NCBI GenBank assembly: GCA_032622095.1
Contig: CP136064.1
Span: 130,621,605-130,685,604 of the forward strand
Direction of reading: 5' to 3'
From: Siphonodentalium dalli
Lineage: Eukaryota > Mollusca > Scaphopoda > Gadilida > Siphonodentaliidae
DNA: 64,000 nt
Shown: one piece after another, positions 8,871-42,250 of the stretch
Layout of the letters: each line of letters opens with the position of its first letter
How positions within the stretch are numbered: the stretch's first letter is position 1
Program-made: the position numbers and the translations under genes
The notes under the pieces: generated by a model
Told to the model about the DNA's origin: nothing
What the model saw: only the letters and a program-made list of their open reading frames with translations
Databases searched by the model: none

Positions 8871-9032
8871 TTGAATGTGGTCATGCATGTTACAGTACAA
8901 GACACGATGAAAATGATGATGGATATGATCTAGACATTGATTATTTTTTCTCTCTCCGTCTGTCTGCGAGAAGTTCACGTTCTTGTTGTTCTCGTTGCTG
9001 TATAATACTTTTTGGAGCTCTGCACGTTCATC
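8871..9032. other. Unassigned short spacer
   Basis: No gene or repeat was recognised between the 170-bp array and the MITE. Confidence 0.4.
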
Positions 9033-9036
9033 TTAA

Positions 9037-9516: not shown

Positions 9517-9520
9517 TTAA

Positions 9521-10724: not shown

Positions 10725-11294
10725 CTAGAAGGTGACCCGACTTCGTCCGGGCTTTGACCTTGAATTGTCCATTTTGAAGGTCAAGGTCAAGTGGGGTAAC
10801 GATTTGACCAGTCCAAAACACTGCCCGGACAAAAGAACCCGACAAACGTGCCCGTCGAAATCCATCCGGTTTTACCCGATTTGACCTTGAATTGATCATT
10901 TTGAAGGTCAAGGTCTGGTCGGGGTCACGATTGGACCCGTCCAAAACAATCGGTGAACAAAAGTAACCCAACGTATCAAATTTCGTCGAAATCCCATCAA
11001 AATTGGCGATTTGACCTTGAAGTTACCCGATTTCAAGGTCAAGGTCACGTCGCACGGGCAAATGAATATGCTTATGAGACTCGCCATAAGAAAGTACCCC
11101 CACATACCAAGTTTCATCGAAATCCCGTGATATTCGGGCGTTTGACCTTGAAATGACCCGATTTCAAGGTCAAGGTGACGTCGCACGGACAAATTAATAT
11201 GCCTATGTTCGTCCCCGGCCGAAAATACCCCCACATACCAAGTTTCATCGAAATCGGTTGGGAAGTTTTCGAGTTCATCGCGAACACACACACA

Positions 11295-11328
<34 letters not shown>

Positions 11329-11349
11329 TCTTCCAAAATATATAATAGA
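10725..11349 (-). mobile_element. Helitron-like element, family H1, chain 2 unit 2
   Basis: It abuts unit 1 with no spacer (CTAG at 10725-10728). It contains about three inverted or direct pairs of TTGACCTTGAA and TTCAAGGTCAAGGTC, then a (CA)n microsatellite at 11284-11328. It is almost identical to 17249-17865, which points to recent amplification. The 142-aa and 115-aa minus frames are repeat translations. Confidence 0.75.
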
Positions 11350-12274
11350 CTAGAAGGTGACCCGACTTCGTCCGGGCTTTGACCTTGAATTGTCTATTTT
11401 GAAGGCCAAGGTCAAGTGGGGTCACGATTTGACCCGTCCAAAACACTGCCCGAACAAAAGTACCCGACAAAAGTACCCGTCGAAATCCATCCGGTTTTAC
11501 CCGATTTGACCTTGAATTGACCATTTTGAAGGTCAAGTTCAGGTGGGGTCAAACACCAACACCCCAAAAATGGTGGAAATCGGCCCAGCGGATACCGGGA
11601 AATCGGCCCAGCGGATACCGAGATACCCTATGCATCAAATTTCGTCCGTAAAAATCCGCCAGTTTAACCCGATTTGATTTCCACTGAAGTATATAAACGC
11701 GCCTCATATACACACGCTCATTAATTATCAAGTTTCAACGTAAAGATAAATTACCATCGGTGCCCGAGATATCGCCAAGACGTCTGAAACAGTCAAATGC
11801 ATCGGCCTGTTAAGAGTTAACGTGATCTAACTTTATGACCTCTAACGACGTCATAGAAGTTACGCATTGTTTTTACCCTGATAGAAGATCGTACCACTTC
11901 TTCTTAATAATTGAGGCAGATAACTAAAACGGATACATACATATTATATATCGTTGGAAAGAGGAAACACGAAAGATTCTCATAGTGTCATTATTATGAC
12001 TGGCATGTTATTATTCGCGCTGTTTCGAATCGATTTGTAAGCACCGAACTCAAATGAAAGTCCCGTAACACAGCGTAAAAACAGATTTGACCTCGGCACG
12101 TGAAAAGTTGACCTCGGATCTGAAAATCAATAGGCCTATGTTCGTCCCCGGCCGAAAATACACCCACATACCAAGATTCATCGAAATCGGTTGGGACGTT
12201 TTCGAGTTCATCGCGAACACACAGACACACACACACACAGACAGACACACAGATCTTCCAAAATATATAATAGA
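11350..12274 (-). mobile_element. Helitron-like element, family H1, chain 2 unit 3
   Basis: The CTAG terminus is at 11350-11353 and the TC start faces unit 4 at 12274. The body matches unit 1 over most of its length, including the tandem CGGCCCAGCGGATACCG. A CACAGACA microsatellite lies near the 5' end. Confidence 0.75.
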
Positions 12275-12780
12275 CTAGCCGATGAGCCCGACGTTGTCCG
12301 GGCTATTCAAAAACCAAATTTCAAGTCGATAGCTCTACCCGTTTCCGAGATCTGGTCTGCGCATGCGCGAAGCTGGCGTCGCATGGGCTCGGCGACCCGA
12401 TAAAATTCGTATCCGGGGCAAGATACATTCACATACCAAATTTCAAGTCGATAGCTCCACCCGTTTCCGAGATCTCGTCTGCGCATGCGCGAAGCTGGCG
12501 TCGCACGGGCTCGGCGACCCGATAAAATTCGTATCCGGGGCAAGATACATTCACATACCAAATTTCAAGTCGATAGCTCCACCCGTTTCCGAGATCTCGT
12601 CTGCGCATGCGCGAAGCGGGCGCCGCACGGGCTCGCTAATACGACAACGTTCACCGCCTGGTAAAACTACTCACACGTACCAAGTTTCGTCCCGATCGGT
12701 CGAGAATCGTAGATTTGTATAAATGACAGACAGACAGACAAACAAACAAACAAACAGAGGTCTTCAAAATATATATGAGA
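12275..12780 (-). mobile_element. Helitron-like element, family H2, chain 2 unit 4
   Basis: The minus strand starts TCTCATATATATTTTGAAGA, then a (GTTT)n(GTCT)n microsatellite, a spacer, and three 122-bp core copies each centred on TGCGCATGCGCG. It ends with hairpin GCCCGGACAACGTCGGGC, TCATCGG and CTAG. The chain changes here from H1 to H2 without any host DNA between them. Confidence 0.8.
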
Positions 12781-13368
12781 CTAGCCGATGAGCCCGACGT
12801 TGTGCGGGCTATTCAAAAACAAAATTTCAAGTAGCTCCGACGTTGTCCAGGCTATTCAAAAACCGACGAAATTTGTATCCGGGGCAAGATACATTCACAT
12901 AGCAAATTTCAAGTCGATAGCTCCACCCGTTTCCGAGATCAGGTCTGCGCATGCGCGAAGCTGGCGTCGCACGGGCTCGGCGACCCGATAAAATTCTTAT
13001 CCGGGGCAAGATACATTCACATACCAAATTTCAAGTCGATAGCTCCACCCGTTTCCGAGATCTCGTCTGCGCATGCGCGAAGCTGACGTCGCACGGGCTC
13101 GGTGACCCGATAAAATTCGTATCCGGGGCAAGATACATTCACATACCAAATTTCAAGTCGATAGCTCCACCCGTTTCCGAGATCTCGTCTGCGCATGCGC
13201 GAAGCGGGCGCCGCACGGGCTCGCCAATCCGACAACGTTCACCGCTTGGTCAAACTACACTCACGTACCAAGTTTCGTCCCGATCGGTCGAGAATCGTAG
13301 ATTTGTATTAATGACAGACAGACAGACAGACAGACAAACAAACAGAGGTCTTCAAAATATATATTAGA
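12781..13368 (-). mobile_element. Helitron-like element, family H2, chain 2 unit 5
   Basis: It has the same architecture as unit 4 with three core copies (near 12946, 13068 and 13190) and a rearranged 3' part containing two partial terminal blocks. Confidence 0.8.
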
Positions 13369-14034
13369 CTAGCCGATGAGCCCGACGTTGTCCGGGCGAC
13401 GTTGTCCGGGCTATTCAAAAATCAAATTTCAAGTCGATAGCTCTACCCGTTTCCGAGATCTGGTCTGCGATGAGCCCGACGTTGTCCGGGCTATTCAAAA
13501 ACCAAATTTCAAGTCGATAGCTCCACCCGTGTCCGAGATATGGTCTGCGCATGCGCGAAGCTGACGTCGCACGGGCTCGGCGACCCGATAAAATTCGTAT
13601 CTGGGGCAAGATACATTCACATACCAAATTACAAGTCGATAGCTCCACCCGTTTCAAAGATCTCGTCTGCGCATGCGCAAAGCTGGCGTCGCATGGGCTC
13701 GGCGACCCGATAAAATTCGTATCCGGGGCAAGATATATTCACATAGCAAATTTCAAGTCGATAGCTCCACCTGTTTCCGAGATCTCGTCTGCGCATGCGC
13801 GAAGCTGGCGTCGCACGGACTCGGCGACCCGATAAAATTAGTACTCGGGGTAAGATACATTCACATACCAAATTTCAAGTCGATAGCTCCACCCGTTTCC
13901 GAGATCTCGTCTGCGCATGCGCTGCACGGGCGTCGCGCGGGCTCGCCAATACGACAACGACCACCGCCTGGTCAAACTACACACACGTACCAAGTTTCGT
14001 CCCGATTGGTCGAGAATCGTAGATTTGTATTAAG

Positions 14035-14068
<34 letters not shown>

Positions 14069-14090
14069 GGTCTTCAAAATATATATGAGA
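13369..14090 (-). mobile_element. Helitron-like element, family H2, chain 2 unit 6
   Basis: It holds four core copies (near 13546, 13668, 13790 and 13912) and a duplicated terminal block at 13376-13500. It is bounded by CTAG at 13369-13372 and 14091-14094. Confidence 0.8.
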
Positions 14091-15032
14091 CTAGCCGATG
14101 AGCCCGACGTTGTCCGGGCTATTCACAAAATCAAATTTCAAGTCGATAGCTATTCAAAAACCAAATTTGAAGTCGATAGCTACACCCGTTTCCGAGATCT
14201 GGTCTGCGCATGCGCGAAGCTGGCGTCGCACGGGCTCGCCGACCCGATAAAATTCGTATCCGGGGCATGATACATTCACATAGCAAATTTCAAGTCGATA
14301 GCTCCACCCGTTTCCGAGATCTCGTCTGCGCATGCGCGAAGCGGGCGCCGCACGGGCTCGGCGACCCGATAAAATTCGCATCCGGGGCAAGATACATTCA
14401 CATAGCAAATTTCAAGTCGATAGCGCCACCCGTTTCCGAGATCTCGTCTGCGCATGCGCGAAGCGGGCGCCGCACGGGCTCGCCAATACGACAACGACGA
14501 CCGCCTGGCCAAACTACACTCACGTACCAAGTTTCGTCCCGATCGGTCGAGAATCGTAGATTTGTATCAATGTCAGACAAACATACAGACAGACAGACAA
14601 ACAAACAGACAGAGGTCTTAGCTGGCGTCGCACGGACTCGGCGCCCGATAAAATTCGTATCCGGGGCAAGATACATTCACATAGCAAATTTCAAGTCGAT
14701 AGCTCCACCCGTTTCCGAGATCTCGTCTGCGCATGCGCGAAGCTGGTATCGCACGGGCTCGGCGACCCGATACAATTCGTATCCGGGGCAAGATACATTC
14801 ACATAGCAAATTTCAAGTCGATAGCTCCACCCGTTTCCGAGATCTCGTCTGCGCATGCGCGAAGCGGGCGCCGCACGGGCTCGCCAATACGACAACGTTC
14901 ACCGCCTGGTCAAACTACACACACGTACCAAGTTTCGTCCCGATCGGTCGAGAATCGTAGATTTGTATTAATGACAGACAGACAGACAGACAAACAAACA
15001 TACAGACAGAGGTCTTCAAAATATATATGAGA
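14091..15032 (-). mobile_element. Helitron-like element, family H2, chain 2 unit 7, with internal fusion
   Basis: This is the longest H2 unit. A second microsatellite plus AGGTCTTA is joined directly to core sequence near 14618. The usual AAAATATATATGAGACTAG junction is missing there, so two units appear fused by deletion or unequal exchange. Five core copies are present. Confidence 0.75.
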
Positions 15033-15604
15033 CTAGCCGATGAGCCCGACGTTGTCCGGGTTATTCAAAAACCAAATTTCAAGTCGATAGCTACACCCGT
15101 TTCCGAGATCTGGTCTGCGCATGCGCGAAGCTGGCGTCGCACGCGCTCGGCGACCAGATAAAATTCGTACCCGGGGCAAGATACATTCACATACCAAATT
15201 TCAAGTCGATAGCTCAACCCGTTTCCGAGATCTCGTCTGCGCATGCGCGAAGCTGGCGTCGCACGGGCTCGGCGACCCGATAAAATTCGTATCCGGGGCA
15301 AGGTACATTCACATAGCAAATTTAAAGTCGATAGCTCCACCCGTTTCCGAGATCTGGTCTGCGCATGCGCGAAGCTGGTGTCGCACGGGCTCGGCGACCC
15401 GATACAATTCGTATCCGGGGCAAGGTACATTCACATACCAAATTTCAAGTCGATAGCTCCACCCGTTTCCGAGATCTCGTCTGCGCATGCGCGAAGCGGG
15501 CGCCGCACGGGCTCGCCAATACGACAACGTTCACCGCCTGGTCAAACTACACTCACGTACCAAGTTTCGTCCCGATCGGTCGAGAATCGTAGATTTGTAT
15601 TAAT

Positions 15605-15636
<32 letters not shown>

Positions 15637-15664
15637 AACAGAGGTCTTCAAAATATATATGAGA
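15033..15664 (-). mobile_element. Helitron-like element, family H2, chain 2 unit 8
   Basis: It has four core copies (near 15116, 15238, 15360 and 15482) spaced 122 bp apart, then the GTTTGACC spacer and a (GTCT)n microsatellite. Confidence 0.8.
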
Positions 15665-16270
15665 CTAGCCGATGAGCCCGACGTTGTCCAGGCTATTCAA
15701 AAACCGACGAAATTCGTATCCGGGGCAAGATACATTCACATAGCAAATTTCAAGTCGATAGCTCCACCCGTTTCCGAGATCTGGTCTGCGCATGCGCGAA
15801 GCTGGCGTCGCACGGGCTCGGCGACCCGATAAAATTCTTATCCGGGGCAAGATACATTCACAAATTTCAAGTCGATAGCTCCACCCGTTTCCGAGATCTC
15901 GTCTGCGCATGCGCGCAGCTGACGTCGCACGGGCTCGGTGACCCGATAAAATTCTTGTCCGGGACAAGATACATTCACATACCAAATTTCAAGTCGATAG
16001 CTCCACCCGTTTCCGAGATCTCGTCTGCGCATGCACGAAGCTGACGTCGCACGGGCTCGGTGACCCGATAAAATTCGTATCCGGGGCAAGATACATTCAC
16101 ATACCAAATTTCAAGTAGATAGCTCCACCCGTTTCCGAGATCTCGTCTGCGCATGCGCGAAGCGGGCGCCGCACGGGCTCGCCAATACGACAACGTTCAC
16201 CGCCTGGTCAAACTACACTCACGTACCAAGTTTCGTCCCGATCGGTCGAGAATCGTAGATTTGTATTAAT

Positions 16271-16302
<32 letters not shown>

Positions 16303-16338
16303 AACAAACAAACAGAGGTCTTCAAAATATATATGAGA
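15665..16338 (-). mobile_element. Helitron-like element, family H2, chain 2 unit 9 (5'-most)
   Basis: It has four core copies (near 15786, 15905, 16027 and 16148). On the minus strand the unit begins TCTCATATATATTTTG and is preceded by A. Together with the T after the chain's other end, this shows that all nine units sit as one block in a single A|T site. Confidence 0.8.
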
Positions 16339-16779
16339 TAACTGGAAAGTAAAAATTCAAGCATGATTTTACGGGGTCCGTTAGGCCCGTTCCAAACGAC
16401 GGATTTTTGTCGACTCGAATATAATTGTATTAAATCCGTCGGTGATGCGACTGCGGTCAATTTTGTTTCAGACGGACGCATCTTCATCGCGTCGAATCTA
16501 ATGCATCGGTCGATTTATTTAAAGGTGCACCACCGGTTACCGTCACAAAATGGTCATCCGTAGATATGGAGGCCTATATATACCGGTATATTATACATAT
16601 ATACCAATATACAGTACAAATTATGTATATGCGCGATGGTAGCGCGAATATATGTACACGTGTATATATATAGTACATATATAGTTATATAATATACTAT
16701 ATAATAGGCGCTACAAATAAATGTTATATCGTGCAACCAATTGCCATATATGTGAATACCATGCATGTAAATACAGGTA
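16339..16779. other. Unassigned AT-rich spacer
   Basis: There is no gene. The segment 16570-16720 is rich in ATATAT and GTATAC steps. Confidence 0.4.
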
Positions 16780-17248
16780 TACAGAAGTTATTATAAATCA
16801 GAGACTACTACCCCTACCCCTTATAATAAGGAATACCGGAATATATTAATTATTATAAATCATAGGCTATACCACCTATATCCTTTATAATATGGAGTGC
16901 GGTATCTTTGAATTAATATCATAGGTTACCATCCCTATACCCCCCATAATAAGTAATACAGGTTTATATGAATTATTATAAATCTGAGCCTATATACCAC
17001 CTCTATACCCCTTATAATATGGAATACCGGTATATATAAATTATTATAAATCATAGGCTACCACGGTAGAGTGCATTCTGCATGTTCCTTATAATAAGTA
17101 ATACCGGAATATATGAATTATTATAAATAAGAGGTTACCACCCCTATACCCCTCATAATAAGTAATGCCGGTTTAAATAAATTATTATAACTCAGTGGTA
17201 CCACCACTACCCCTAGCTTATAATAAGTAATACCGGTATATATATTAA
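16780..17248 (+). repeat. ~75-bp AT-rich minisatellite, left part
   Basis: About six degenerate units contain ATTATTATAAATCA, GGCTACCACCCCTA and ATAATAAGTAATACCGG. The array resumes at 19013 after the Helitron-like chain. Confidence 0.7.
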
Positions 17249-17865
17249 CTAGAAGGTGACCCGACTTCGTCCGGGCTTTGACCTTGAATTGTCCATTTTG
17301 AAGGTCAAGGTCAAGTGGGGTAACGATTTGACCAGTCCAAAACACTGCCCGGACAAAAGTACCCGACAAACGTGCCCGTCGAAATCCATCCGGTTTTACC
17401 CGATTTGACCTTGAATTGATCATTTTGAAGGTCAAGGTCTGGTCGGGGTCACGATTGGACCCGTCCAAAACAATCGGTGAACAAAAGTAACCCAACGTAT
17501 CAAATTTCGTCGAAATCCCATCAAAATTGGCGATTTGACCTTGAAGTTACCCGATTTCAAGGTCAAGGTCACGTCGCACGGGCAAATGAATATGCTTATG
17601 AGACTCGCCATAAGAAAGTACCCCCACATACCAAGTTTCATCGAAATCCCGTGATATTCGGGCGTTTGACCTTGAAATGACCCGATTTCAAGGTCAAGGT
17701 GACGTCGCACGGACAAATTAATATGCCTATGTTCGTCCCCGGCCGAAAATACCCCCACATACCAAGTTTCATCGAAATCGGTTGGGACGTTTTCGAGTTC
17801 ATCGCGAACACACAGACACACACACACACAGACAGACACACAGATCTTCCAAAATATATAATAGA
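17249..17865 (-). mobile_element. Helitron-like element, family H1, chain 3
   Basis: It is a near-identical copy of 10725-11349. CTAG at 17249-17252 is followed on the minus strand by T. Its 5' end abuts an H3-type unit at 17866. Confidence 0.75.
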
Positions 17866-19012
17866 CTAGCAGGTTAGCCCGCCACCGGCGGCTTGTCCGT
17901 AACATGACATTTATATATATATATTTTAAATTTTTAGCTCCACGCGTTTCAATAAGAAAAAATTGTACCCGGTAGCTCCACCAGTTTCCGAGATCTGGTC
18001 TGCGCATGAAAATTTGTAGCCGACGCAAGATACATTCACATGCCAAATTTCAAGTCGATAGCTCCACCCGTTTCCGAGATCTCGTCTGCGCATGCGCTGC
18101 ACGGGCGTCGCACGGGCTCGGCGACCCGATAAAATTTGTACCCGGCGCAAGATACATTCACATAGCAAATTTCAAGTCGATAGCTCCACCCGTTTCCGAT
18201 ATCTCGTCTGCGCATGCGCTGCACGGGCGTCGCACGGGCTCCTCATCGTCGCAAAGAGCGGACAGTCAATTAACCCCGTTGTGAACCTCAATCACCAACG
18301 CGACGTAAACATGTGTTGCGTTCTAAAAATAGGAAAGCACTTTCTCTCTGCATAATTCTGCAGATGCTAATAACGTTGCTCCCCGTAGGTAGCAATATCG
18401 TTGTTGTTGATATTTACGGCTTGGGGGCTATTTTCTTATTTAGCAAGTTTGAGCTCAATCGGTTAGAGTCTATAAAGGACACACTCATATATATGACACT
18501 TCCCGTAGGTAGCAAGTTTGAGCTCAATCGGCATTCCCTGGAATTTCCCGTAGATTGTCAGATTCAAGTAGCTTTATAACGGTATATCTGGGGAGAAATC
18601 TGATGCTATATTCGTGATTATCTGGGATGATTTCGGTATATACCAAAGGTATATACTGTAAAATCAAAGCGGGCCATCCGTGCTCGCAGGGAATAAATTT
18701 CGAGCGATAACGTTTGCGTTCCCGTATAACTCTGCAGATGCGAATAACGTTGAATGTGAAACAGACGCTCTTTATAGAGATGCGTCAAAAACAAACGCTC
18801 ATTAAATAATCACTTGATTAACCCCCGCCGTGCCTTTGCGGTGATTTGAGATTGGAGAACGGGTGCTCTGAGCTTCTCTAAACCGCTACCACGGTCGTGT
18901 CGGTGGGATTTGACACTTACATAGGACGTTTGAGCTCAATCAGTACACGCGTTTTGGATTCTATGAAGTACACACACACATATATACGAAGTCTCAAAAT
19001 ATATAGTATAGA
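17866..19012 (-). mobile_element. Chimeric Helitron-like element: H3 ends, H2 core, chain 3
   Basis: The termini are H3 (the CAGGTTAGCCCGCCACC block next to CTAG, and the TCTATACTATATATTTTG start preceded by A). The interior from 17940 to 18240 carries H2 core copies with CTGCGCATGCGCTGC. The rest (18390-18960) matches H3 body. This is a composite of two families inside one set of ends. Confidence 0.7.
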
Positions 19013-19200
19013 TAGATTAAAGATTAATTATAGATTATTATACACCAGAGACTACCACCCCTATCCCTTACAATAAGGAATATCGGTCAATATGACTTAT
19101 TATAAATCAGTTTCTACAACCCCTACCCCTTATACCGGTATATATGAATTATTATAAATCATTGATACTATATCCATTATAAGATGTGAGTCAGTGACAT
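19013..19200 (+). repeat. ~75-bp AT-rich minisatellite, right part
   Basis: It is a continuation of the 16780-17248 array with the same ACTACCACCCCTA and ATTATTATAAATCA units, so the chain 3 Helitrons were inserted into this array. Confidence 0.65.
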
Positions 19201-19794
19201 GCCATGTTCATTGAGAAATCAAACTACCAAAATAATTAACTGCATGGTCCGTATCAGACAGGGTCCGTAAGAGCCAGGGTCCGCGTATCAGCCGCATACC
19301 ATTCAAACTTCCTGCTGAATTGAGGGTAAAAACATATATATCCAGGGGTCCTATATATACCTCAATGAAAGTGATCTAGTCTATATAGGCAATTATGGAC
19401 ATATATATAGGTATTGCATCGAGAGGAAAATTATAAGACCTATATACATTGTTCGTTAACATAAACACTTGACTTTCGGGATCCGTATTGGGCCTATTGG
19501 CCTATGTTGGATTTGTGAGATAGGTGGACTTTTTTTTATCACCACTTGGTTTGATTGAGGTATCTGATGATAAAATCGGTCATTTTTGCAATAAAGGTGA
19601 CATATTTGACAGAGATATTTCACACGTTTCGAGAAGAGATGTCAGAGATATTCGTTCAATTTCGATACTTGAGAATGGGGCGATACCAGAGTAAAATGTA
19701 ATACATGTAACCATTGAATCTCGGAATGGCAGTCATGACGTCATGTATATGGGCCCGATCCTATCATGCGTATATATGTGATACCCCCCCCCCC
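19201..19794. other. Unassigned spacer
   Basis: There is no gene. CAGGGTCCG recurs three times near 19255-19290. The segment ends in a long poly-C tract at about 19784-19800. Confidence 0.4.
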
Positions 19795-22700
19795 CCCCCC
19801 GGAATTAAAATTCCTCAAAAATGAGCATCGAAGTATATATCGAATACTATACTTTTCATACTATAGGAGTGCTATATATACGACCCACTAAATCCATTCA
19901 CGTTAAAACAATTTATGTACAAAAAAAATCGAATGTTAAAATTGCTCAAAAATGAGCATCGAAGTATCCAATACTCATTTTGCTATATATACGACCCACT
20001 AAATCCATTCACTTGAAAAATGAGCATCGAAGTATCGAATACTCTAATTTTGATAGGGGTGCTATATATACGACACACTTAATCCATTCACGTTGAAAAA
20101 ACTTATGTACAATACAAGAAATGTTGAACGAATGTTGAATGTTGAATGTTGTGCCAACTTCACACGAATGTTGAACGAATGTTGAATGTTCTTTCTGTTC
20201 AACATTCGCCAGCGAAAACCACACATGCTAGGCGTGGGCCCTATGGAGAATTAAAGTACCATCAGGGTAAATCCCTGCATATATGGGCCCGATCCGATCA
20301 TGCGTATATGATGTGCCCACTCTCTCCCCCGGAATTGAAATTGCTCAAAAATGAGCGTCGAAGTATCCAATACTCATTTTGATAGGAGTGCTATATATAC
20401 GACCCACTCAATCGATTCACGTTAAAAAACAAATGTACAAGAAAATTCGAATGTTGAACGAATGTTGAATGTTGAATGTTGTGCCAACTTCACGCGAATG
20501 TTGAACGAATGTTGCATGTTCTTTCTGTTCAACATTCGCCAGCGAAAACCACACATGCTATGCGTTGGCCCTATGGAGAATTAAAGTACAATCGGGGTAT
20601 AATGCCTGCATATATGGGCCCGATCCGATCATGCGTATATGATGTGCCCCCTCTCTCCCCCGGAATTGAAATTGCTCAAAAATGAGCGTGATTTGAAATT
20701 GCTCAAAAATGAGCGTCGAGGTATCCAATAATCATTTTTATAAGAGTGCTATGTATACGACCCACTAAATCCATTCACATTAAAACAATTTATGTACAAG
20801 AAAAATCGAATGTTAAAATTGCTCAAAAATGAGCATCGAATACTCTAATTTTGATAGGGGTGCTATATATACCACCCACTAAATCCATTCACGTTCAAAA
20901 ACAAATGTACAAGATAATTTGAATGTTGAACGAATGTTGAATGTTGAATGTTGTGCCAACTTCACGCGAATGTTGAACGAATGTTGCATGTTCTTTCTGT
21001 TCAACATTCGCCAGCGAAAACCACACATGCTAGGCGTGGGCCCTATGGAGAATTAAAGTACCATCAGGGTATAATACCTGCATATATGGGCCCGATCAGA
21101 TCATGCGTATATGATGTGCCCCCTCTCTCTCCCGGAATTGAAATTGCTCAAAAATGAGGGTGATTTGAAATTGCTCAAAAATGAGCGTCGAGGTATCCAA
21201 TAATCATTTTGATAAGAGTGCTATGTATACGACCCACTAAATCCATTGACATTAAAACAATTTATGTACAAGAAAAATCGAATGTTAAAATTGCTCAAAA
21301 AGGAGGATCGAAGTATCGAATACTCTAATTTTGATAGGGGTTCTATATATACGACCCACTCAATCCATTCACGTTCAAAAACAAATGTACAAGAAAATTC
21401 GAATGTTGAACGAATGTTGAATGTTGAATGTTGTGCCAACTTCACGCGAATGTTGAACGAATGTTGCATGTTCTTTCTGTTCAACATTCGCCAGCGAAAA
21501 CCACACATGCTAGGCGTGGGCCCTATGGAGAATTAAAGTACCATCGGGGTATAATGCCTGCATATATGGGCCCGATCCGATCATGCGTATATGATGTGCC
21601 CCCTCTCTCCCCCGGAATTGAAATTGCTCAAAAATGAGCGTGATTTGAAATTGCTCAAAAATGAGCGTCGAGGTATCCATGCAATAATCATTTTGATAAG
21701 AGTGCTATGTATACGACCCACTAAATCCATTCACATTAAAACAATTTATGTACAAGAAAAATCTAATGTTAAAATTGCTCAAAAATGAGCATCGAAGTAT
21801 CGAATACTCTAATTTTGATAGGGGTGCTATATATACGACCCACTCAATCCATTCACGTTCAAAAACAAATGTACAAGAAAATTCGAATGTTGAACGAATG
21901 TCGAATGTTGAATGTTGTGCCAACTTCACGCGAATGTTGAACGAATGTTGCTTGTTCTTTCTGTTCAACATTCGCCAGCGAAAACCACACATGCTAGGCG
22001 TGGGCCCTATGGAGAATTAAAGTACCATCAGGGTATAATACCTGCATATATTGGCCCGATCCGATCATGCGTATATGGTGTGCCCCCTCTCTCCCCCCGG
22101 AATTGAAATTGCTCAAAAATGAGCGTGATTTGAAATTGCTCAAAAATGAGCGTCGAGGTATCCAATACTCATTTTGATCGGAGTGCTATGTATACGACCC
22201 ACTAAATCCATTGACATTAAAACAATTTATGTACAAGAAAAATCGAATGTTAAAATTGCTCAAAAATGAGCATCGAAGTATCGAATGCTCTAATTTTGAT
22301 AGGGGTTCTATATGTACGACCCACTCAATCCATTCACGTTCAAAAACAAATGTACAAGAAAATTCGAATGTTGAACGAATGTTGAATGTTGAATGTTGTG
22401 CCAACTTCACGCGAATGTTGAACCAATTGTTGCATGTTCTTTCTGTTCAACATTCGCCAGCGAAAACCACACATGCTAGGCGTGGGCCCTATGGAGAATT
22501 AAAGTACAATCGGGGTATAATGCCTGCATATATGGGCCCGATCCGATCATGCGTATATGATGTGCCCCCTCTCTCCCCAGGAATTGAAATTGCTCAAAAA
22601 TGAGCGTGATTTGAAATTGCTCAAAAATGAGCGTCGATGTATCCAATAATCATTTTGATAAGAGTGCTATGTATACGACCCACTAAATCCATTCACATTA

Positions 22701-23056
22701 AAACAATTTATGTACAAGAAAAATCGAATGTTAAAATTGCTCAAAAATGAGCATCGAAGTATCGAATACTCTAATTTTGATAGGGGTTCTATATATACGA
22801 CCCACTCAATCCATTCACGTTCAAAAACAAATGTACAAGACAATTCGAATGTTGAACGAATGTTGAATGTTGAATGTTGTGCCAACTTCACGCGAATGTT
22901 GAACGAATGTTGCATGTTCTTTCGGTTCAACATTCGCCAGCGAAAACCACACATGCTAGGCGTGGGCCCTATGGAGAATTAAAGTACCATCAGGGTATAA
23001 TGCCACGCGAATGTTGAACGAATGTTGAATATTGAATGTTGTGCTAACTTCACGGA
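19795..23056 (-). repeat. ~480-bp satellite array, right copy (inverted)
   Basis: It has the same monomer as 4423-7542 on the opposite strand. The GGCGTGGGCCC marker recurs near 20217, 20549, 21018, 21499, 21983, 22466 and 22948, giving units of about 470-484 bp after one short unit. Its outer edge (GTGCTAACTTCACGGACCC) mirrors the outer edge of the left array (GGGTCCGCGAAGTTAGCAC). The short frames inside are repeat translations. Confidence 0.9.
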
Positions 23057-24547: not shown

Positions 24548-25125
24548 TTAATCACAGTGGATAAACCGTACAAACATATAATCGGAAGTCGCTTTCGCCA
24601 AGACGAAATATTATATGTTTAGATCATAAATACTACAGAAGGTTCAACACAACACCATAAAAACCAGTTTTCAGACCGGATAGACGGTTTCCCCACAGCT
24701 GTAAACTATAAACGTACAAATATATTGTACATACACATTTGCTGATCGCAAGCTGGCTCCATTTGAGCGAAGGACTCTTTTTATAGATAAAAACGGCCTT
24801 TGATCAGTTCATAAAATAATGTTCCCCCAAAAAATCTCTCTTCAAACAGGGGGGGGGGGGGTAGTACAAATTTGCAGGAAGGTATGCCGTTTTTTTTGCA
24901 TCTGGCATTTTCGGGGACCCACCACCCCCAAACCTGCAAAAAAAAAAATTCTACACCCACCCCCCAAATTTTACTAAAATTGGTCTAAAATCTCATAAAA
25001 CTCTACTGATATCACTCATATGACTGGGAATGATCTCAATTAGTTCAAATAACAGTTTAACCTGTTTCAGAAGCTGTTTTAATTGAAAAAAAATGTTTTA
25101 TAAATTGCTGATCATCTTTAAACCT

Positions 25126-26146
25126 AGGTCATTGGGCAGAATACACAACATTTCATAATTTCTAACTATTTCCTGTCAACCAGCCCATTATCTAACATAT
25201 TCCATACCACTTATGTTAGTCTACTCGAGCAACTTACTTCTATTATACTAAACTAGCTGAAACAGGCTTAGACAGAGCCGTCATTTAGAAGCAGCCACTT
25301 CGTGCGCTTCAAGCACATTTGGTCATTGAAACATTTTGATTTATATATATTGTTTTAATATATTTTTTTTTAATGATTGAATTCCTTGCTCAATTTAACA
25401 AAACCAATTTTATTTTATTTTTTTTCATTAACAATTTTGAAAAACTAATACCATTATAACATCCGCCAGGGTACCCCGAATCACCACACCAAATTTGGTT
25501 GAACTCGGTCCAGGTGTCTGAGAGAAAAATCCAGACAGATGTTACTCGTTTATATATACAGATGACAAGCAGTCACAGCACTATACCAGACTTGGATACT
25601 TTAGGTCTTGTGAGAGATCATCTGAGTTGAAAGACATGCAAATAATTCACTGATTGGCTTGATGCACTAATGACAGATATTTTCTACCCATTGATAGTCA
25701 CATTAATGTTTGAAACTGTTGCTCGCTCTTTTTCCATGCACACAATGATCTACGTAATAGTTACATCAGGACAAGTTTACTTATTCATGTATATGCAAAC
25801 TTAGGTCATTGTACAGGATACACACAATTCCATAATTTCTAACCATTTCCCGATTAGTCTGTCAACCAGCACATTATCTAGCATTATGCCTTAACACCTT
25901 TGTTAGTCTACTGGGGCAACCTCTTTTATAATAAATGACAAACAGTCACTATGCCAGACTTGGATATTTTAGATGTTGTGAGACGGTAACCGGTCATATG
26001 AGTTGACAGACATGCAAATATTTCACTGATTGGCTTGATATATTCTAACCATTGATAGTCACATTAATGTTTGAGACAGTTGCTCGCTCTTTTTCCATGC
26101 ACACAATGATCTAGGCTTTAGTTACATCAAGACAAGTTTATTTATT
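25126..26146 (+). repeat. Imperfect tandem duplication inside the nested transposon
   Basis: 25126-25795 and 25803-26146 share GACTTGGATA, GATTGGCTTGAT and GTTGCTCGCTCTTTTTCCAT in the same order. The first copy is longer because a Helitron-like element sits in it. Confidence 0.75.
25253..25562 (-). mobile_element. Short Helitron-like element (family H4) in an A|T site
   Basis: On the minus strand it starts TCTGTATATATAAACGAG preceded by A and ends GCCTGTTTCAGCTAG followed by T, with a small GGCT/AGCC stem before the end. The second copy of the surrounding duplication lacks it and reads ATAATAAATGACA across the site. It leaves no target duplication, as expected for Helitrons. Confidence 0.75.
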
Positions 26147-28450
26147 TCAGTTTTACTTTTCTCGAAGCTTCTTTCCAAAGGGTGTCGGGAAGGATTTTTG
26201 TTCACCCCACCGCCCCATATGCAACATGCCATAGCTAATGTCATCTCCACTAAGGCCCACATGAGGTCCCAGTAAACATTAATATGGTGTTTTTGCAGTT
26301 ATAGATTCTTACAATATGTTTTAAACTATTAGAAATGTAAAATAAGGGCACAAAAGGTCTTTGGTAAAAAAAATTGCATGAGGTTGTAAAAAACGCGTTT
26401 TTTGCCCCTCGGGCCACCCACCACCCCGGCATACCTTCCTGCAAATTTTTTACTACCCCCCCCCGCTTCAAATGTCATTTTAACACATATACAGCAACTG
26501 TCGGAAATCTTACAATATTGCAACGGTAAGGCCGTTATGTTATGCAACCTATATTTACATTACCTTGGCTTGGGTATATTCACAATCAGAAAGTAGAGAC
26601 TATCTATTTGGACACCCCACTCGTCAGTCTCTGTATATACGCCTAGGTGTGTACGACGAGAATCACCACTCGCGACGTTGTACAGGTATCGTACAGTAAT
26701 TATATGTTCCTTTCGATCCATTTAAACATAACTATATGTCTTCGGAATGTCACGCCATTGAACTTATATACTCTGTCTGAATCAAACTAGGCATTCTTAT
26801 TAATATTTATAGCGACTTTATTCGACTCCGCAAGTAAAAAACTGTATTTGGGGGTGGCGGCTGTATGATATATTCTGTGATGAAATTGTGTTTACGTGGG
26901 AATTTACTAACACAAACTACAGGTTGTATATGTGCACCATCGCCTTATATTTGCGGTCGTGACTGCGAGTGCCTTCTTGTGTATCACTACATGAATATAG
27001 ACTGGCCAGTCCCGAAAAGTCAAACAAGTGCTATCTTCGAGTTGCACCTCTTGGGTTGGAATTTTCCGGCAGAGACACCCAGACAAACGATTAAGTTAAG
27101 CGCAGCTGAAATATATATTACGTTATTGGTGGCCCCAATTTTGGCACAGTGTTTCCAATAAAATCACATATTTCCACATAAGTAGACTTGGCTAAGATAT
27201 GTGTGGATAAGACATATTGTGTCACAATTGGAATAATATTGCAATTGTCTATGTTCGTTAACTGAAGAAACAAATAGATAGACTGTATTTCATGGCTCAC
27301 TGTGCCTAAATATGTCTTCTGATCATAATATCGATCTGAACAAGTGTGTGTTATGTACGGAAGAACCCATTTAAGAGAGATGTCATGGGATGTCGATTTT
27401 GGTTGTACTTGCATATATCAGTTTCCTGTCGATTAAATCAACAAATCGCTTCACTGACAACGAACATTCAAGCCTTGAGGTTTTATGTTTTTCAGCAAGT
27501 TTAATTCTACATTATTATATTATGTTTACTTAAATTTATTTGCAATTCTTTTGGTACTTATATTGAAAAGATAGAGTTTCATCTCTTGTGTCACCGGAAA
27601 ACTTGAGAAGTAATATGCATGATATGTATACATGTAGAGCAGAAGTCTTCAACTGCGTGCAATGCTTTTCGATGAACTACATCATGTAATTCAATAGAAA
27701 TGTCATAATACCTTTTAAAATATAGCTCAAATATACTTTAAGTTTCAGCACGGTATCTATTGATAAACATAGTTTCGTTCGGTGCTTGAATAAGAACAAA
27801 GTTTGTCGAGAAATCGGAAAACGGACGTGGAACGGAACAGTGACTTCGTCGTGTGATTGAAGGTTAATAATGACAATCGGGAGGAGGAACATGTCTAACA
27901 TGGAAACCTAATTCATGGTTTCGTCTTTGCAAACACATCCCATCACCACAACCTGACGTACATATTTTTGACAACTTGTGATCAGCAACTTAAACAACTA
28001 GGCGTACAGAGACTGACGAGTGGGGTGTCCAAATAGATAGTCTCTACTTTCAGACCAAACCAAGGTAATATCAATATAAATGCACACATAACGGCCTTCC
28101 GTTGCAATATAGTGGGAATTCCGACAGATGCTGTATATGTGTTAAAATGACATTTGAAGAGGGAATTTTGCGAGAAAATTATGTTCTGAAATGCATGATC
28201 AAATGCCGTTTGTATCAAGCAAAAAGAGTTCGTCTCTCAAATGGAGCCCGCTTGCGATCGGCAAATGTGCATGTACAATACAAGCTTACGTTTATAGCTG
28301 TGGGGAGACCGTCTATCCGGTCTGAAAACTGTTGTGTATGGTGTTGTTGTGATCCTTCTGTAGTATTTTATGTTCTAAAAATAAAAAAAATTCGTCTTGG
28401 CGACAGCGACTTCCGATTATATGTTTGTACGGTTTATCCACTGTGTTAAT

Positions 28451-34244: not shown

Positions 34245-34856
34245 TTATATATCGCTCATGTTTAATAAGATGTAATTGTCAATCAATTTCTTAACAAGGC
34301 CAAGCAATACCATAGCTTGAGACTTGATTTGGCGAAAAAGTGTACTGTAAAAAGAAGGTGGTATATTCCCCAGAAATATGGATAACTGCTTTGCCCCTGT
34401 CAACTCGTCCATATACATAAAAGCATCTATTCCGAAAGTGTTTATGATATCGTACCAAATATTATTCCTTGTATTCGATATGGAAGTGCAGTTTATTATG
34501 GTATGTTCTATAATGCATTGATATTGAGTATTACATAGTAGACAAAGCCCGTTATATTTATATGCGGTGTGAGCGATAAGTCTAGCAATCATAAGAAATG
34601 TAAATTTTTCATCTGGATAAAGCCTGCATGTTTGCCACAGTAACGAGGAATTGAGTTTGGTTTGTGTAAGTCCATATTGTGCCAGATCACTATTTGATTC
34701 AATACTCTTTCTCCACTCAAGTGCATTTATAGTGTTAATCTCAGTTTTTACGATATTCTTCCAGTATGATTTGGTGGGAAACGTGCTTTCGAGCGTATAG
34801 CGTTCTAGGTACTCATATAAGTTATACCTCTTTAGAACTGTAGAAATATCTGCCAT
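34245..34856 (-). pseudogene. LINE A ORF2 C-terminal domain (frameshifted from RT)
   Basis: 203 aa continue the ORF2 protein after an apparent one-base loss around CCTTTATGG (about 34850). The segment contains LCLLCNTQYQCIIEHTIINC, a C-x2-C-x9-H-x4-C pattern like the zinc-knuckle-like domain at the end of CR1/Jockey-type ORF2 proteins, likely involved in RNA or DNA binding. It ends at a stop 450 bp before the element's 3' tail. It overlaps the upstream frame by 25 bases. Read as a stand-alone ORF it would have no known function, so it is best seen as part of a broken ORF2. Confidence 0.8.
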
Positions 34857-36835
34857 AAAGGATTGTGGGTGAGAAATTCCAAGAATATGACTATGGTCTT
34901 ATTTGTATTTAGTCTACATAATGTTGCTAGTAAGCTTAATTTCCTTTTATCAATATATGATTCAAGCCCACCGCACCCCAGAAGCCCCTGTACGATGTAA
35001 GTTCTGGTTTGTTGTGGGAATCCTTGAATATGTTTTAGGCAAAATCTATGTGCTCTCTCCGTGAATGCATGAGAAACATTAGATATATTCCAGAGCAGTT
35101 CACTACCGTACAGAGCCTTAGGGAGGACGATGGACTTGTAGATACTGAAACAACTGTATGGGGTGATACCGCCTGCGTATAATCCTGCATTGGTCAGCGA
35201 TAGATATGTGCCTTTGAGTTTTGTGCAAATTTTGTTTGCAAGTTTTGAGTTAAAGCTGAATTTCTCAATAGGGATTCCCAAGTGTGTTCCAGATTCGACT
35301 TCGTGTATTACACTGTTGCCAAATTTCCACGACCTCTGTGATTTAATGAATTCACGTTGCGTTTCGTTAAAAACAATGATGAATGTCTTGGATGAGTTAT
35401 AAAGGTATCTCCATTTCAAGCTATATTCTAGACAAATATTATACAAAGTACGTAGGCCTGACTCTGAAAGTGATAGAAGTACCATGTCATCCGCCTGTAC
35501 TGGCGAAGTGCACTTTATATCATGCATGTGGAGGCCACATAAAGAATTTTCCAACTCGTATATGAGGTCGTCTACATACAACATATAAAATAGAGGTGAG
35601 AGGATAGAGCCTTGTCTAGCTCCTTGAAAGATGCCAAACCAGTCTGAGAAAGTATTTCTATACCGTACGCAACATTCGATACCCGTCAGGAGTGCTTTGA
35701 AAGTGTGCCATATAATACCATTGAATCCTCTTTTATGCAATGTGTACAAAAGACCATTTAACCAGACGGAATCAAACGCTTTTGTGACGTCTAGAAAACA
35801 GGCGAATAATTTACTGTGCGTCTCTTTAGTGTAGGAAATGCACTCCTGTAATAAGTACGAAGTTGCCATACAGCTTACTCCGCTCTGAAAACCATGTTGG
35901 AGAGGGTTGATGGCTATATTATTTGGCGTGTATGATTGCAAGCGCATGAGTATCACTTTTTCATATAGTTTATATAAAGCAGGCATGATTGTAATTGGTC
36001 TGTAGCTGTCAAATGCTTGTTTTGACTTTTTACCGCCTTTATATAGAGATATCATCACTCCTTTCTTGGCATTGTTAGGAACATATGAAAATTCTAACAT
36101 CTTACTGAAAAGGTGGCACAATTTACAAACTATGTATGGTGCGCTATGAACAATGTGTTCATTTGTTATCGAGTCATGTCCCGCTCCTTTATTCCTGTTG
36201 AGTTTAGGTATAATAGGTATAATATCGGTCAACTCTGATTCACTGACTGGACAGCAGAGAATTTTATCAAAGTCGGTATATTTGTCTTTTTTAATAGACG
36301 ATACATATGAATTAACCGATTTAAGATGATTAGCGTCAAACTGCTCATTTTGTAGTGGTATGAATAGGTTTCCATAGTATGATGCCCATGCATTAGATAT
36401 AGACTGGTTAGTACGGAGAGTTTCACCGTTGTGCACGAAATGTGACGGCGATAGCGTGTTACGTTCTCTGCGTTTGTAATTGACCAATCGATAGAATGTA
36501 TTCTGATCTATTTCTGCGCACTTGTCGATTTCGGAATCACGGTCCCGCATAAATTGTTCTGAAATTTTGCGATGTGTACGTCGAAAAGAGCGTTTTGCTT
36601 CTTTATAATGGCGATATGAATTGGAACCTTCGTAATGAGGTTTGCCTTCTGCCAACCAGCATCTGCGACACTCGCGCATATTAAAGTGGGCGGATTTTAA
36701 CGAGTTGTTCCAATATGGTTTAATATGACTACGGAATTTTGATTTAGGAACAACTTCTGAGGCTGCATTACTGAGAGCAGAAACTAAGGAATTATAATAG
36801 TTATCAATCGAAGATACATGCATACAGTAGGGCAA
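34832..36835 (-). pseudogene. LINE A ORF2 reverse transcriptase
   Basis: 667 aa carry the RT domain that primes cDNA from nicked target DNA. Visible motifs in order are NRNKGAGHDSITNEH (motif 0/1), SYRPITIMPALYKLYE (motif 2), FLDVTKAFDSVW (motif A, catalytic D), GARQGSILSPLFY (motif B), VQADDMVLLS (motif C, catalytic DD with Q in place of F or Y), followed by the thumb with GTHLGIPI. The upstream linker separates it from the endonuclease. Its frame is offset from the endonuclease by one base at an A5 run (T5 on + at about 36836-36840). Otherwise the 2-kb frame is open, so decay is slight. Confidence 0.9.
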
Positions 36836-37701
36836 TTTTTACCCACGTTTGTCGCAAACGTACGAGCGAGTGTCGGATTTGAATTCAGAGCTGACCATTT
36901 TAATTTTGTCGAGCACTGTACATGAGAGGCCTGAGGCTGAAGTACTTCGTCATTCATACATAATGCAATGGAGATTATGGGACGATGCGTTGATACGTCG
37001 ATGCTATCATCTTGTAAAATATCAACTGTTTGTATGTTGTGGCTCATTGCTTTATGAATAAGGAAATGGTATATAATTGAACCGGAATCAGGATATGTCG
37101 GTGGTACGAATGTTTTTACCGTGGTAGTTTTGAACGATTTTTCAATTGGAGAGCAAACACCTTTGTCCATAAACATATTTGTCAATAGCATGCCTCTGTA
37201 ATTTGGGCGAAAGGAATTTACGTTAAAGTCCCCCATAACGATTACAGTTCCCAACGAACTATAATAGTCAAATAAATTTGACACTTTCTCAATATACTTT
37301 GAGAAAAAATCGTCAGAGTAATTGCTGGAAGGAAGATATACTTGGAATATGTAGTAAAATGTCCATTGATTAATGTATAGTTGAATTCCAATAATTCTAT
37401 CATCTTCAGTGTCGATAATTGATACATTATCATTCCACTGCTTATGCCAAAAAATAGCTACTCCGGCTTTTGGTCGACCCTTTTTACCAGGAGGGCCGGG
37501 TGTTGCGTCACATACAGTGTAGGAGTTATAGTATTGTGATATATGGTCCTTCAGCCAATGTTCTGAGATGCCACAAACGTCCACTCCCTGCCTATCGATA
37601 AATCTAGATAAGTAGGAGGAGGATGAAAAGATGCCAGTGGCATTCCATGACATAAAGGATAACATGCTGAAAATAAAATATGTATAAAGAAGTGACATCA
37701 T
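36784..37701 (-). pseudogene. LINE A ORF2 endonuclease
   Basis: 305 aa form an APE-like endonuclease that would nick the genomic target. Motifs are SFMSWNATG (N), GISEHWL (catalytic E), VIVMGDFNVNS (D and N), SIIYHFLI where a D normally follows the second I, and DVSTHRPI where SDH is usual. The two missing aspartates suggest either loss of activity or clade-specific variation. The start MMSLLYTY is 37 bp after the ORF1 stop. The frame runs on briefly past the join with RT and stops at 36784. Confidence 0.85.
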
Positions 37702-37738
37702 CAGAGAAGAACTATTGTTCTGATCTCAATGATGCAGT

Positions 37739-38956
37739 TTAGTGCCAGCTAGGGACGCGGCTGCTGTTCAGTTGTTCACGAGAGCAATCCAATCTGGTAG
37801 TATCCATCCGAGTGCATGTCATACCCACCGGCCAGAAGTCTCTGTCCAGAATAAATTCAGAGTGGTCATTTAATACATTTATCCTGGCAGTAGAAGTTCC
37901 ATTCACACTTGGATAGAGGCGAACTATAGAAAATTCCACTCTGTTGTCATACATGTATTTCTCAATGTCGTCTGAAGAGTAGTTATTGTCTATGTCTCTC
38001 AGAAGTACTCGGTCGGTCTTAATTGGGATTCTAGAACTGTAATTCGATTTTGGAGTGCGCCTAGCACGTCTGTTATTTATGTTTTGTTGTCCGTTGTTCC
38101 ATCGCTGGCCTATCGGAGCTTTTGTATAGTGATAGTTGCCATTATAGTTTGGCCGAGCACGATCATGGTATTCAGGGTAAAGCTTCCTGTGAGTCGAATA
38201 TGAATTTCTAGGCGAATATGATCTACTGTGAAATGAACGGCGTCGTCTAGATGAGTGAGAACGGCGTCGCCTTGGTGAACGTGAGAATGAATGACGTCGT
38301 GATTGGGAGCGACGACTTCTTGATGAGCGAGAACCCTGAGGTGAACGCGGGCGATAACGTCGAGATGAACGAGAACGATGGCGCGATGAGCGTGAATGAA
38401 GTTGAGAATGAGAACATGTTGGAGAATTAGATATCGACAGTCGCGGTGATGATGCACGTTGCAGATGAGTAGTTAGGTTCATTTCTCCGACGGTGGACTC
38501 GACATCGGCTGATCTAATTGATTCAGTATCAATGACATCTACTTTGGACGAAGTTGATTGAGTACCATAATCTGATTTGTACGTAGATTGCATCCTTTGT
38601 GTTAGCTCACTGAAGAAGGTTCCCATCGTGCTTTTAATAAAGTCAACACAATCTGCGGTGCACGATGCCTTGTTTACATTAGAAGAATCACAATTTTGTC
38701 CGCATTCAATCTGTTCTTGTACTTGACCGGTTAGTGCATCTAGTTTTGCAGAGTTTGAATTTATTTTTGCATATTCTATACTCATGCGGTCTAAAACGTC
38801 TGAGAAGTCCTGACGCAGAACAGTAAAATCATTTTTTATATGGTTTGAACCGTTCAGGTTATCATCTTGTAGTTGGTCAATTTTTAGTTTGTTTTCATGC
38901 ACTATTCTTTTAATTTCGGCAACGTCCTCTTCAACATATTTCACTCGGATGTCCAA
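37739..38956 (-). CDS. LINE A ORF1 protein (coiled coil, RS-rich, RRM-like)
   Basis: 405 aa, open throughout. Residues 1-90 look like a coiled coil (MDIRVKYVEEDVAEIKRIV), probably for multimerisation. Residues 185-265 are very rich in RS and SR dipeptides, like splicing factors. Residues 310-385 (DRVLLRDIDNNYSSDDIEKY) resemble a small RRM-like fold that may bind nucleic acid. It is expected to coat element RNA in the cytoplasm. The start is the first ATG after 52 bp of 5' sequence. The fold assignments are by eye. Confidence 0.8.
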   Translation of the reverse strand: MDIRVKYVEEDVAEIKRIVHENKLKIDQLQDDNLNGSNHIKNDFTVLRQDFSDVLDRMSIEYAKINSNSAKLDALTGQVQEQIECGQNCDSSNVNKASCTADCVDFIKSTMGTFFSELTQRMQSTYKSDYGTQSTSSKVDVIDTESIRSADVESTVGEMNLTTHLQRASSPRLSISNSPTCSHSQLHSRSSRHRSRSSRRYRPRSPQGSRSSRSRRSQSRRHSFSRSPRRRRSHSSRRRRSFHSRSYSPRNSYSTHRKLYPEYHDRARPNYNGNYHYTKAPIGQRWNNGQQNINNRRARRTPKSNYSSRIPIKTDRVLLRDIDNNYSSDDIEKYMYDNRVEFSIVRLYPSVNGTSTARINVLNDHSEFILDRDFWPVGMTCTRMDTTRLDCSREQLNSSRVPSWH

Positions 38957-39008
38957 TCCAGAGATGTTTCCCTGTATCGTGGGGATATCTATATTAATAG
39001 CCTTATTT

Positions 39009-39981
39009 ATTCCAGGAAAGCAGCAAAATGCAGATGGTCGAACTTTTACAAAGGTCCGCTAGATTAGACCTCATTGATGAACGATCTAAATTTGTGCTAG
39101 AAAAGGTCACAGACGTGGAATCGAGGTTCATGAGAAATGAACTTATATTCACAGGTATATGCGAGGCCTAAACTCCCAAACATTCAACCGAAGTAGTCCT
39201 CAAACGTTTCATGGAAGACCAACTCAATATCGACCACGATATTAGTCTGGAATTCGCTAAACGGCTTGGCAAAGGTAAAAGCCCGAGACCAATACCGGCA
39301 CGATTTTCCAGACTGAAGGACCGTGATGCAATCAAACGAAAAAGCGGCATTCTCAGAGGCACAAACTTCTTTATAAATGAGAACTTCCCGGATGTTGTGA
39401 ACGACTATAGGCAAAATACATTAAAGAAAAAAGCCAAGAAATTTCGAGGGAAGGGGCAGAAAGAGCCCGGACAAGTACATAGGGAATTCCACCCAGGAAG
39501 AGGACACTCACAGACAGGGGGCCGTAGAATGGCACGTGGCCACCGAGGGCGAGGTGGAAGAGGCGCACACGTGAACTCTCAAGATTATATGAACAATAGC
39601 TATTTTGACAAAACTCCGAACACCAATTATATGTATGCACGCGAACCACTGCCCCCACCACCACCACACCCACCATCACCACCACCACCACCACCACCAC
39701 CGGCAAGCAGGACATATGTTGGCCCGCCTCAATATGGACCCTCGCCATTCACCAATAGCCACCCACCACTACCACCCCCTCCTCAGCTCCCTCAACCCCC
39801 CACAAAGCCGATCGCCAACCCCACTCCCATACAGCAAGCAATCATTGACACTCCATCTCCAATGCAAACTCAATCTGTAACACAACCGCAGACTTCCACG
39901 CTCAACGACGGCCCCATTTGTGATGCTCGCAATGTCAAAGAAGACGAGCCTCCAGGTGAACCAAAGGCTGACACTGAGTAG
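39009..39981 (+). pseudogene. LINE B ORF1, second copy (C-terminal 256 aa still open)
   Basis: This copy retains sequence lost from 32263-33376. From 39211 an open frame of 256 aa reads the L1-type ORF1 core (HDISLEFAKRLGKGKSPRPI, then LRGTNFFINENFPDVVNDYR), an RGG box (MARGHRGRGGRGAH), and a long proline-rich tail (PPPPPPHPPSPPPPPPPP). Upstream, the same TAA after GICEA separates it from the coiled-coil part, as in copy 1. Divergence from copy 1 is small (a few substitutions and indels), so the duplication is young compared with LINE B itself. Confidence 0.85.
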
Positions 39982-39984
39982 GAA

Positions 39985-40760
39985 GGCCCGGGAGTGTTCC
40001 AGATACGACTTCTATCACTGAATGTATGTGGGCTCCAAACACGATTAGAAGACCCGGAATTTTTGGAATATATAGACAATTTTGACATTCTTTTGTTTCA
40101 AGAAACCAAGACCGACAATTTAGATGTTATATAAATAGAAAATTTTAATGTCCTAGAGTTAATGAATAGAAAAACCATATCAAAGAATCGTTCAGGGGGA
40201 CTATGCATTGCCATCAGAGAATCCCTCAAACCTTTCTTCAATATTATCACAGATGACTGCCCAGAAATCCTCTGATGTGAGTTCCGCGGACCCAAGGGTC
40301 CAACATATGCGATCGGTAACGTTTATATACCATGCGAAAACTCTAAATACTTCAACGAGAATACATTTTACAGAATCCACGTTTCTATATTAGAGAAATT
40401 TGTCTGCTATGATCACATATTTATCAGTGGAGATTTCAATTTAAGAACAGGAACGCTCGATGATATCACACATGTAGGCAAATTAATAGAAGAGTTTTCA
40501 CTCAATCTCCCCTCCAAACACCGACATAACCCATGCAGACACCTCATCTAACAACTCCGGAACGAAATTACTCAGACTTTGCGAAAGTACCAGCTTGATA
40601 ATACTGAATGGCAGAATAGGTTGTGATTACCCAAAACCTAACTTCACAACATGGGGGTACAGCGTTATTGACTACATGATTACCACCCCGAAACTCACCT
40701 AAGATGTTATTTTCAAGTCGCAGAATATAACCCGCTTGCATCTGACATACACTGTTCAAT
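39985..40760 (+). pseudogene. LINE B endonuclease, second copy (stops and frameshifts)
   Basis: The domain reads RLLSLNVCGLQTRLEDPEF, LLFQETKT, then CEFRGPKGPTYAIGNVYIP, FISGDFNLRTG and VIDYMITTPKL in changing frames. These are the N, E, GDFN and xIDY motifs of APE-type LINE endonucleases. Stops after NLDVI and CPEIL match copy 1. More stops follow beyond 40540. It continues past the point (40390) where copy 1 is cut by LINE A. Confidence 0.8.
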
Positions 40761-41059
40761 TATCGCGTGTATACGGATGCGTGTTTGTAAAGAGAGCAAA
40801 CGACTAGTGGTTAAGAACAGCACAAAGCCGAAACTCCCAAGTGGAAATAATCACAGGAATAACTTAACTGCCAAATACCGCCGCCAACCATCGCGAATAC
40901 GTGACACCCCAAAAATTGAATATACCGACCCACACAAGCCGAGAACAGTGAATGATCTCACCGCTATATTCGTGCGTACGCATAATCAGCCCTGTCCGGA
41001 CAGACAGACAGACAAACATAAACAGGATATCCGACGCGTTCAGCAATATCCTTTTAGGC

Positions 41060-42250
41060 ACTGAAAAAGAACAATATTCTACCGCACGAACCATGACTAG
41101 GAGACCAAATCCGCGAATAAAAATAAAAAACAAAGCACCGTGGTTCAAAAATGACTGCGCCCAAAATCCGCCCAACCACACAACACAAAGCACGCTGATA
41201 GAATCAAGATATCATTATAAAATAACTTTGAGAAAAAGTAAGAAATTATATTACACACATCTCAGGAACAAAATTCATGATCTTAAAGGTAACTAAAGCT
41301 CTGAATTTTGGAAATTTATGAAACAATTAGATAGAAAATCGGATGGCAATCCAGTAATCCCGTCAGCGCATATTTTTAAGGAACATTTCGCATTCGAAGA
41401 GCAGAAACTTTTCTCGCGAGTTGCACAGGAACGCCGAACGCCGAACCTCCCTTACTCCGATACGTCTAGCATAGACAATTCCCTTTTGAACAGAGAAATC
41501 ACAGTTGGGGAAGTGGCGCAAGCCGTTAAAAATCTTAAGAACGGGAAGGCACCGGGGCATGATGGGATAACCAATGAAATGATTAATATATATATATATA
41601 GTAGTCAACAGCTAGGGCCCTTCTATGCCAGGTTTTTCAACCTAATCCTCTCTACCGGTTATATACCAACGGAATGGTCGCTCGGCACCATACGACCCAT
41701 CTTTAAGAATAAAGGCGACTTTTTGAACTCCGACAATTATAGAAGAATTACACTGCTGTGCGTTATTTCCAAAATGTTTACTAGCATTCAATGTAAACGC
41801 ATAAATGTTTTCCTGTTAGAGAATGACCTTCAGATTGAATCTCAGGCTGGATTCCGTAAAGGATACTCTACCGTAGACCACATATTGGCCATGTATATGT
41901 TGACTCAATTACTCAAATCAGGGAAACAAAACTTGCACTGCGCATTCGTCGATTTTTCCAAAGCATTCGATTCAGTGTGGAGAGATGGGCGAAACTGAGG
42001 TATCATAAAATCACCGGAAATGTACTCAGAACAATACAGAAGATATATGATAATCTTAAGATGAAAGTAATCGCTAACCTATGCTAACCTAATCGCTAAT
42101 CAATGTACCTAAATGACCTTGAACTTTTCCTCGAATCGCGAAACTGCAATGGTATCCTGGTATCCACTATGTGGCATCTGCGGACGACTATATTGATATT
42201 TTCAAGAAGCTGTTCCTAATCATTTACGCAGATGATACAGTTATCCTGGC
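41060..42250 (+). pseudogene. LINE B reverse transcriptase (motif B region deleted)
   Basis: The largest open piece (41318-41998, 226 aa) contains NLKNGKAPGHDGITNEMI, DNYRRITLLCVISKMF, AGFRKGYSTVDHI and HCAFVDFSKAFDSVW (motif A). After a stop at 41998, only about 220 bp separate it from IYADDTVILA (42222), with MYLNDLELFLESRNCNG between. The expected Q-G-x-x-L-S-P motif B is absent, so a deletion removed part of the palm. The protein could not work. Confidence 0.85.

Follow-up and report, generated by a model that had tools for sequence, protein, structure and literature searches.

The window analyzed here, a stretch of 64,000 nucleotides from the genome of Siphonodentalium dalli, contains one copy of a repeated family for which the best explanation, held with high confidence, is a non-autonomous DNA transposon with two inverted repeats of ~450 bp, a non-coding spacer, and a transposase supplied in trans. 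Direct reading of the window placed the element at 24553-28445, flanked on both sides by the 5-bp sequence TTAAT. At the left junction (24553), ...ACTCTTAAT is followed by CACAGTGGATAAACCG, and at the right junction (28445), CGGTTTATCCACTGTG is followed by TTAATCCCC. Reading both junctions confirmed the original prediction of an element with CACAGTG tips and a TTAAT duplication (Table 1).

Table 1. Features of the transposon copy in the window (positions are those of the whole stretch)
Feature	Position	Strand	Basis
Target-site duplication TTAAT, left copy	24548..24552		Direct reading
Left tip CACAGTG	24553..24559	+	Sequence reading, tip search
Left terminal inverted repeat, outer part, ending at the nested insertion	24553..24846	+	Alignment to right arm
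Nested insertion, foreign to the family	about 24847..26465		Inverted arms rich in G/C, with CAGGGG...CCCCG at the termini
Left terminal inverted repeat, inner part	26466..26653	+	Arm alignment; inverted pairs I3, I5, I8
Spacer, common to other copies, no recognised coding sequence	26654..27990		Copy comparison, frame tests
Right terminal inverted repeat	27991..28445	-	Inverted-pair search, arm alignment
Right tip CACAGTG (CACTGTG on +)	28439..28445	-	Sequence reading, tip search
Target-site duplication TTAAT, right copy	28446..28450		Direct reading

A 19-bp tip sequence, searched with ≤3 mismatches, was found at only two sites in the window, and these are the two ends of the element (mean of 0.00 sites in shuffled sequences, n = 100). 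The outermost 60 bp of the arms are 95% complementary, yet they are merely the outer portion of longer arms: once a nested insertion is removed, the left and right arms can be aligned over 477 and 455 bp, respectively. The inverted arms proposed at the outset are real, but the length of 55 bp assigned to them was wrong. Similarly, "foldback" is a loose term for an element of the long terminal inverted repeat (TIR) type with a spacer of ~1.34 kb between its arms. None of the eight window frames tested in the element had a Pfam match.

The nested insertion splits the left arm of the window element and is bracketed by 7-bp repeats (CTTCAAA, 24840-24846 and 26466-26472). The arms of other family copies align to both sides of it, without the insertion itself, and the outer part of the left arm matches those arms at roughly 79%–89%. 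Duplicated segments occur inside the insertion (e.g., 25676-25785 versus 26037-26146, 91% alike), and a piece of it is matched by positions 6125-6237 of one other locus (L011). Elsewhere in the window, the region 4604-23004 holds long inverted repeats; the 25 longest of 424 pairs measure 261-713 bp, are 96%–100% complementary, and lie about 13-18 kb apart. Non-LTR retrotransposon genes are present at 34832-41998 (RVT_1 twice and Exo_endo_phos once), the corresponding domains matching three of the five window frames tested, in keeping with a eukaryotic host.

A search of the host genome (2.23 Gb in nine contigs) with the outer 201 bp of the element as the query yielded 40 scored matches among 1013 first-look candidates. 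The 39 scored matches besides the window are only 86%–89% identical to it over these 201 bp, and hence the family is not young. We examined 31 loci, comprising the window and 30 fetched from the 39 other scored matches. Both ends could be evaluated in 17 of the 31; in the other 14, the retrieved sequence contained only a single type of end, and these loci were excluded. Sequence comparison showed that the arms and the spacer of the window element are common to other copies, and the consensus of nine copies is 2369 bp long, with a longest stop-free stretch of 101 codons. The family is a non-autonomous DNA transposon of about 2.4 kb. No autonomous copy or enzyme gene was found among the family copies examined in the host genome. 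In line with a family that is not young, its source enzyme is likely to be a rare or strongly diverged one, if it has not been lost.

Two open reading frames were considered as candidate enzymes and rejected. Locus L020 carries a Harbinger-like frame (PF13359) within 49-bp inverted repeats (about 2308-6329) inside a family copy. However, the sequence around this frame is an interruption of the family sequence with inverted repeats of its own, and we therefore read it as a nested element rather than as the source of the family's enzyme. A 552-amino-acid frame at locus L019 lies outside the family-related stretch and had neither a Pfam match nor a convincing PDB match.

The tips are exactly CACAGTG at 27 of the 34 ends in the two-ended set, a level of agreement inflated by the selection of copies for similarity to the end of the window element, which favors conserved tips. 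An overlapping set of 32 ends included 21 that are exactly CACAGTG (counted from the listed ends). Duplications of 5 bp predominate among the two-ended copies. Exact duplications were present in 8/17 copies, compared with 1/272 control pairs in which left and right flanks from different copies were matched, and at least four of the five positions agreed in 13/17 copies (15/272 control pairs). Exactly four of five agreed in five of the 17 copies (L033 included) and in 14/272 control pairs. The eight exact duplications are TTAAT, ATTGT, TATAT, GTAAT, GTGTC, AGAAG, ATACG, and TATTT. The presence of 5-bp duplications in other copies, which had been proposed as a test of the original prediction, was therefore mostly borne out, with three exceptions. 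L033 has an exact 8-bp duplication (ATTATAAT, flanks of 301-2606) and matches at four of five positions at 5 bp; L037 has an exact 6-bp repeat and matches at one of five; and L035 has an exact 4-bp repeat and matches at three of five. In the same 5-bp test, L022 matched at three and L034 at one of five positions. The right tip of L037 is repeated three times in tandem in 30-bp steps (about 3174-3261), and its outermost right tip is followed by CATAAT, a 6-bp match to the left flank.

The GC content of the eight exact duplications is 22.5%, compared with 42.6% in nearby flanks (a small sample of eight sites); the duplicated targets are AT-rich. TTAA stands on both sides of the window copy, and the piggyBac, Kolobok, and Sola3 elements have TTAA targets. 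A reading of the family as an element of one of these types, the left junction having gained one additional T, was nevertheless rejected as extremely improbable, given that the seven other exact duplications of the eight are without TTAA.

Judged by its ends, the family appears to behave as a CAC-end transposon with a 5-bp stagger. We infer that it moves by cut and paste and that its enzyme, the kind of which is considered below, is supplied in trans. A DDE-type transposase encoded elsewhere would bind the tips of the element and would cut immediately 5' of CAC at both ends, and a 5-bp stagger at insertion would produce the 5-bp duplications.

The single most likely kind of enzyme is a Transib-like transposase, as suggested by the CAC ends, the heptamer, and the 5-bp stagger, although even this is less likely than not. 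The family would then be a non-autonomous member of the Transib or RAG-like elements, mobilized by a transposase of the Transib or RAG1-like kind. The tips match the full heptamer of the recombination signal sequence (RSS), and published descriptions of Transib, ProtoRAG, and protostome RAGL elements include both CAC ends and 5-bp duplications. Long TIRs together with a 5-bp duplication are likewise described for Hztransib; the family shares these with the Transib superfamily, along with CAC ends and a heptamer-like tip, but differs in being non-coding, in its AT-rich targets, and in that two probes detected no Transib gene in the host. These probes were E-region and D-region motifs, validated on the solved HzTransib transposase at 4.2e-20 and 1.9e-21, and in the host genome they gave no matches at E ≤1 (one and five first-look candidates, respectively); the E-region probe also had no match in viral_contigs and genome_contigs. 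With a hAT motif of similar length (63 amino acids), there were 1142 candidates, and the 150 that were scored matched at 44%–60% identity; the silence of the Transib probes carries weight because this control worked, although hAT is an abundant superfamily and the control demonstrates the finding of 44%–60% matches rather than of a single rare gene. An ordinary Transib gene is therefore unlikely to be present in the host genome, while a rare, strongly diverged, or lost one is possible. The Pfam RAG1 model (PF12940) also had no host-genome match at E ≤0.1, a result without weight, since its 14 control genomes were silent as well.

The tip of Hztransib resembles CACAGTGGATAAACC. RAGL and ProtoRAG elements share CAC ends and 5-bp duplications with the family, and non-autonomous RAGL copies are described from one oyster and several deuterostomes. 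Past CAC, however, the family tip is unlike the reported protostome RAGL consensus (CACTWMCAAAC), and it is CACAGTG where the ProtoRAG tip is reported as CACTATG. Tip positions 8-10 are mostly GAT or GCT, and AAA, which is described as typical of protostome RAGL ends, occurs in none of the 32 ends. The AT-rich duplicated targets, moreover, run opposite to the GC bias in target choice reported for RAG, ProtoRAG, and Transib (PMC8289069). A nonamer signal is also missing: the A/C-rich stretch 10 bp past the heptamer (ACAAACATA), first described as nonamer-like, matches ACAAAAACC at six of nine positions, but among 5000 shuffles of the tip composition the best score was 6 in 2857 and higher in 1370. 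At the V(D)J spacings of 12 and 23, the score was four and three of nine, respectively. The stretch is not unusual compared with shuffled tips, and we rejected it as a chance resemblance. The ends and the 5-bp duplications of the Transib/RAG interpretation stood up, whereas any link beyond the ends found no support. Given that a search for the enzyme came back empty, the family is not established as a member of Transib.

The enzyme may instead come from a different CAC-end superfamily within the EnSpm-Mirage-Chapaev-Transib group, or from one as yet undescribed, with the exact heptamer being convergent, a reading we regard as conceivable but doubtful. It fits the mostly CA..TG ends and 2-5 bp duplications of this group (PMC12730594). 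The empty Transib and RAG1 searches point in the same direction, the latter with the RAG1 model silent in the 14 control genomes too. Within the group, however, a length of 5 bp is typical of Transib, which counts against its other members. The family could also be a non-autonomous one of the hAT5 type, its transposase belonging to the hAT superfamily and producing 5-bp duplications. This is a serious rival, if a somewhat less probable one: hAT5 families with such duplications exist (PMC12730594), and hAT genes are abundant in the host genome. The 5-bp duplications are shared between the family and the hAT5 group, but in a sample of 20 hAT 3' flanks of the host (1.8 kb each, 20 picked among 150 listed of 1916 candidates), none contained sequence of the tip or of the arm. 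Many of the 150 scored hAT genes (of 1916 candidates) have open frames of >600 amino acids, which suggests recent hAT activity in this genome.

A transposase that is neither an ordinary Transib nor RAG may recognize these heptamer-identical ends and insert at AT-rich 5-bp sites, although we put this forward as a doubtful possibility. Such a transposase would be a hAT5, or else a CAC-end enzyme that has diverged strongly or has yet to be described. If the enzyme is indeed of such a kind, the exact RSS heptamer would have an origin separate from the RAG/Transib lineage; alternatively, the heptamer would derive from a lost RAG/Transib branch with a reversed target preference. Should the enzyme prove to be hAT5 or another type, a 7-bp match combined with a 5-bp duplication would be insufficient to identify RAG ancestry. 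If, on the other hand, the enzyme is Transib-like, this would be a non-vertebrate, multi-copy family whose tips equal the vertebrate heptamer, and it would help in asking which letters of the tip predate V(D)J recombination.
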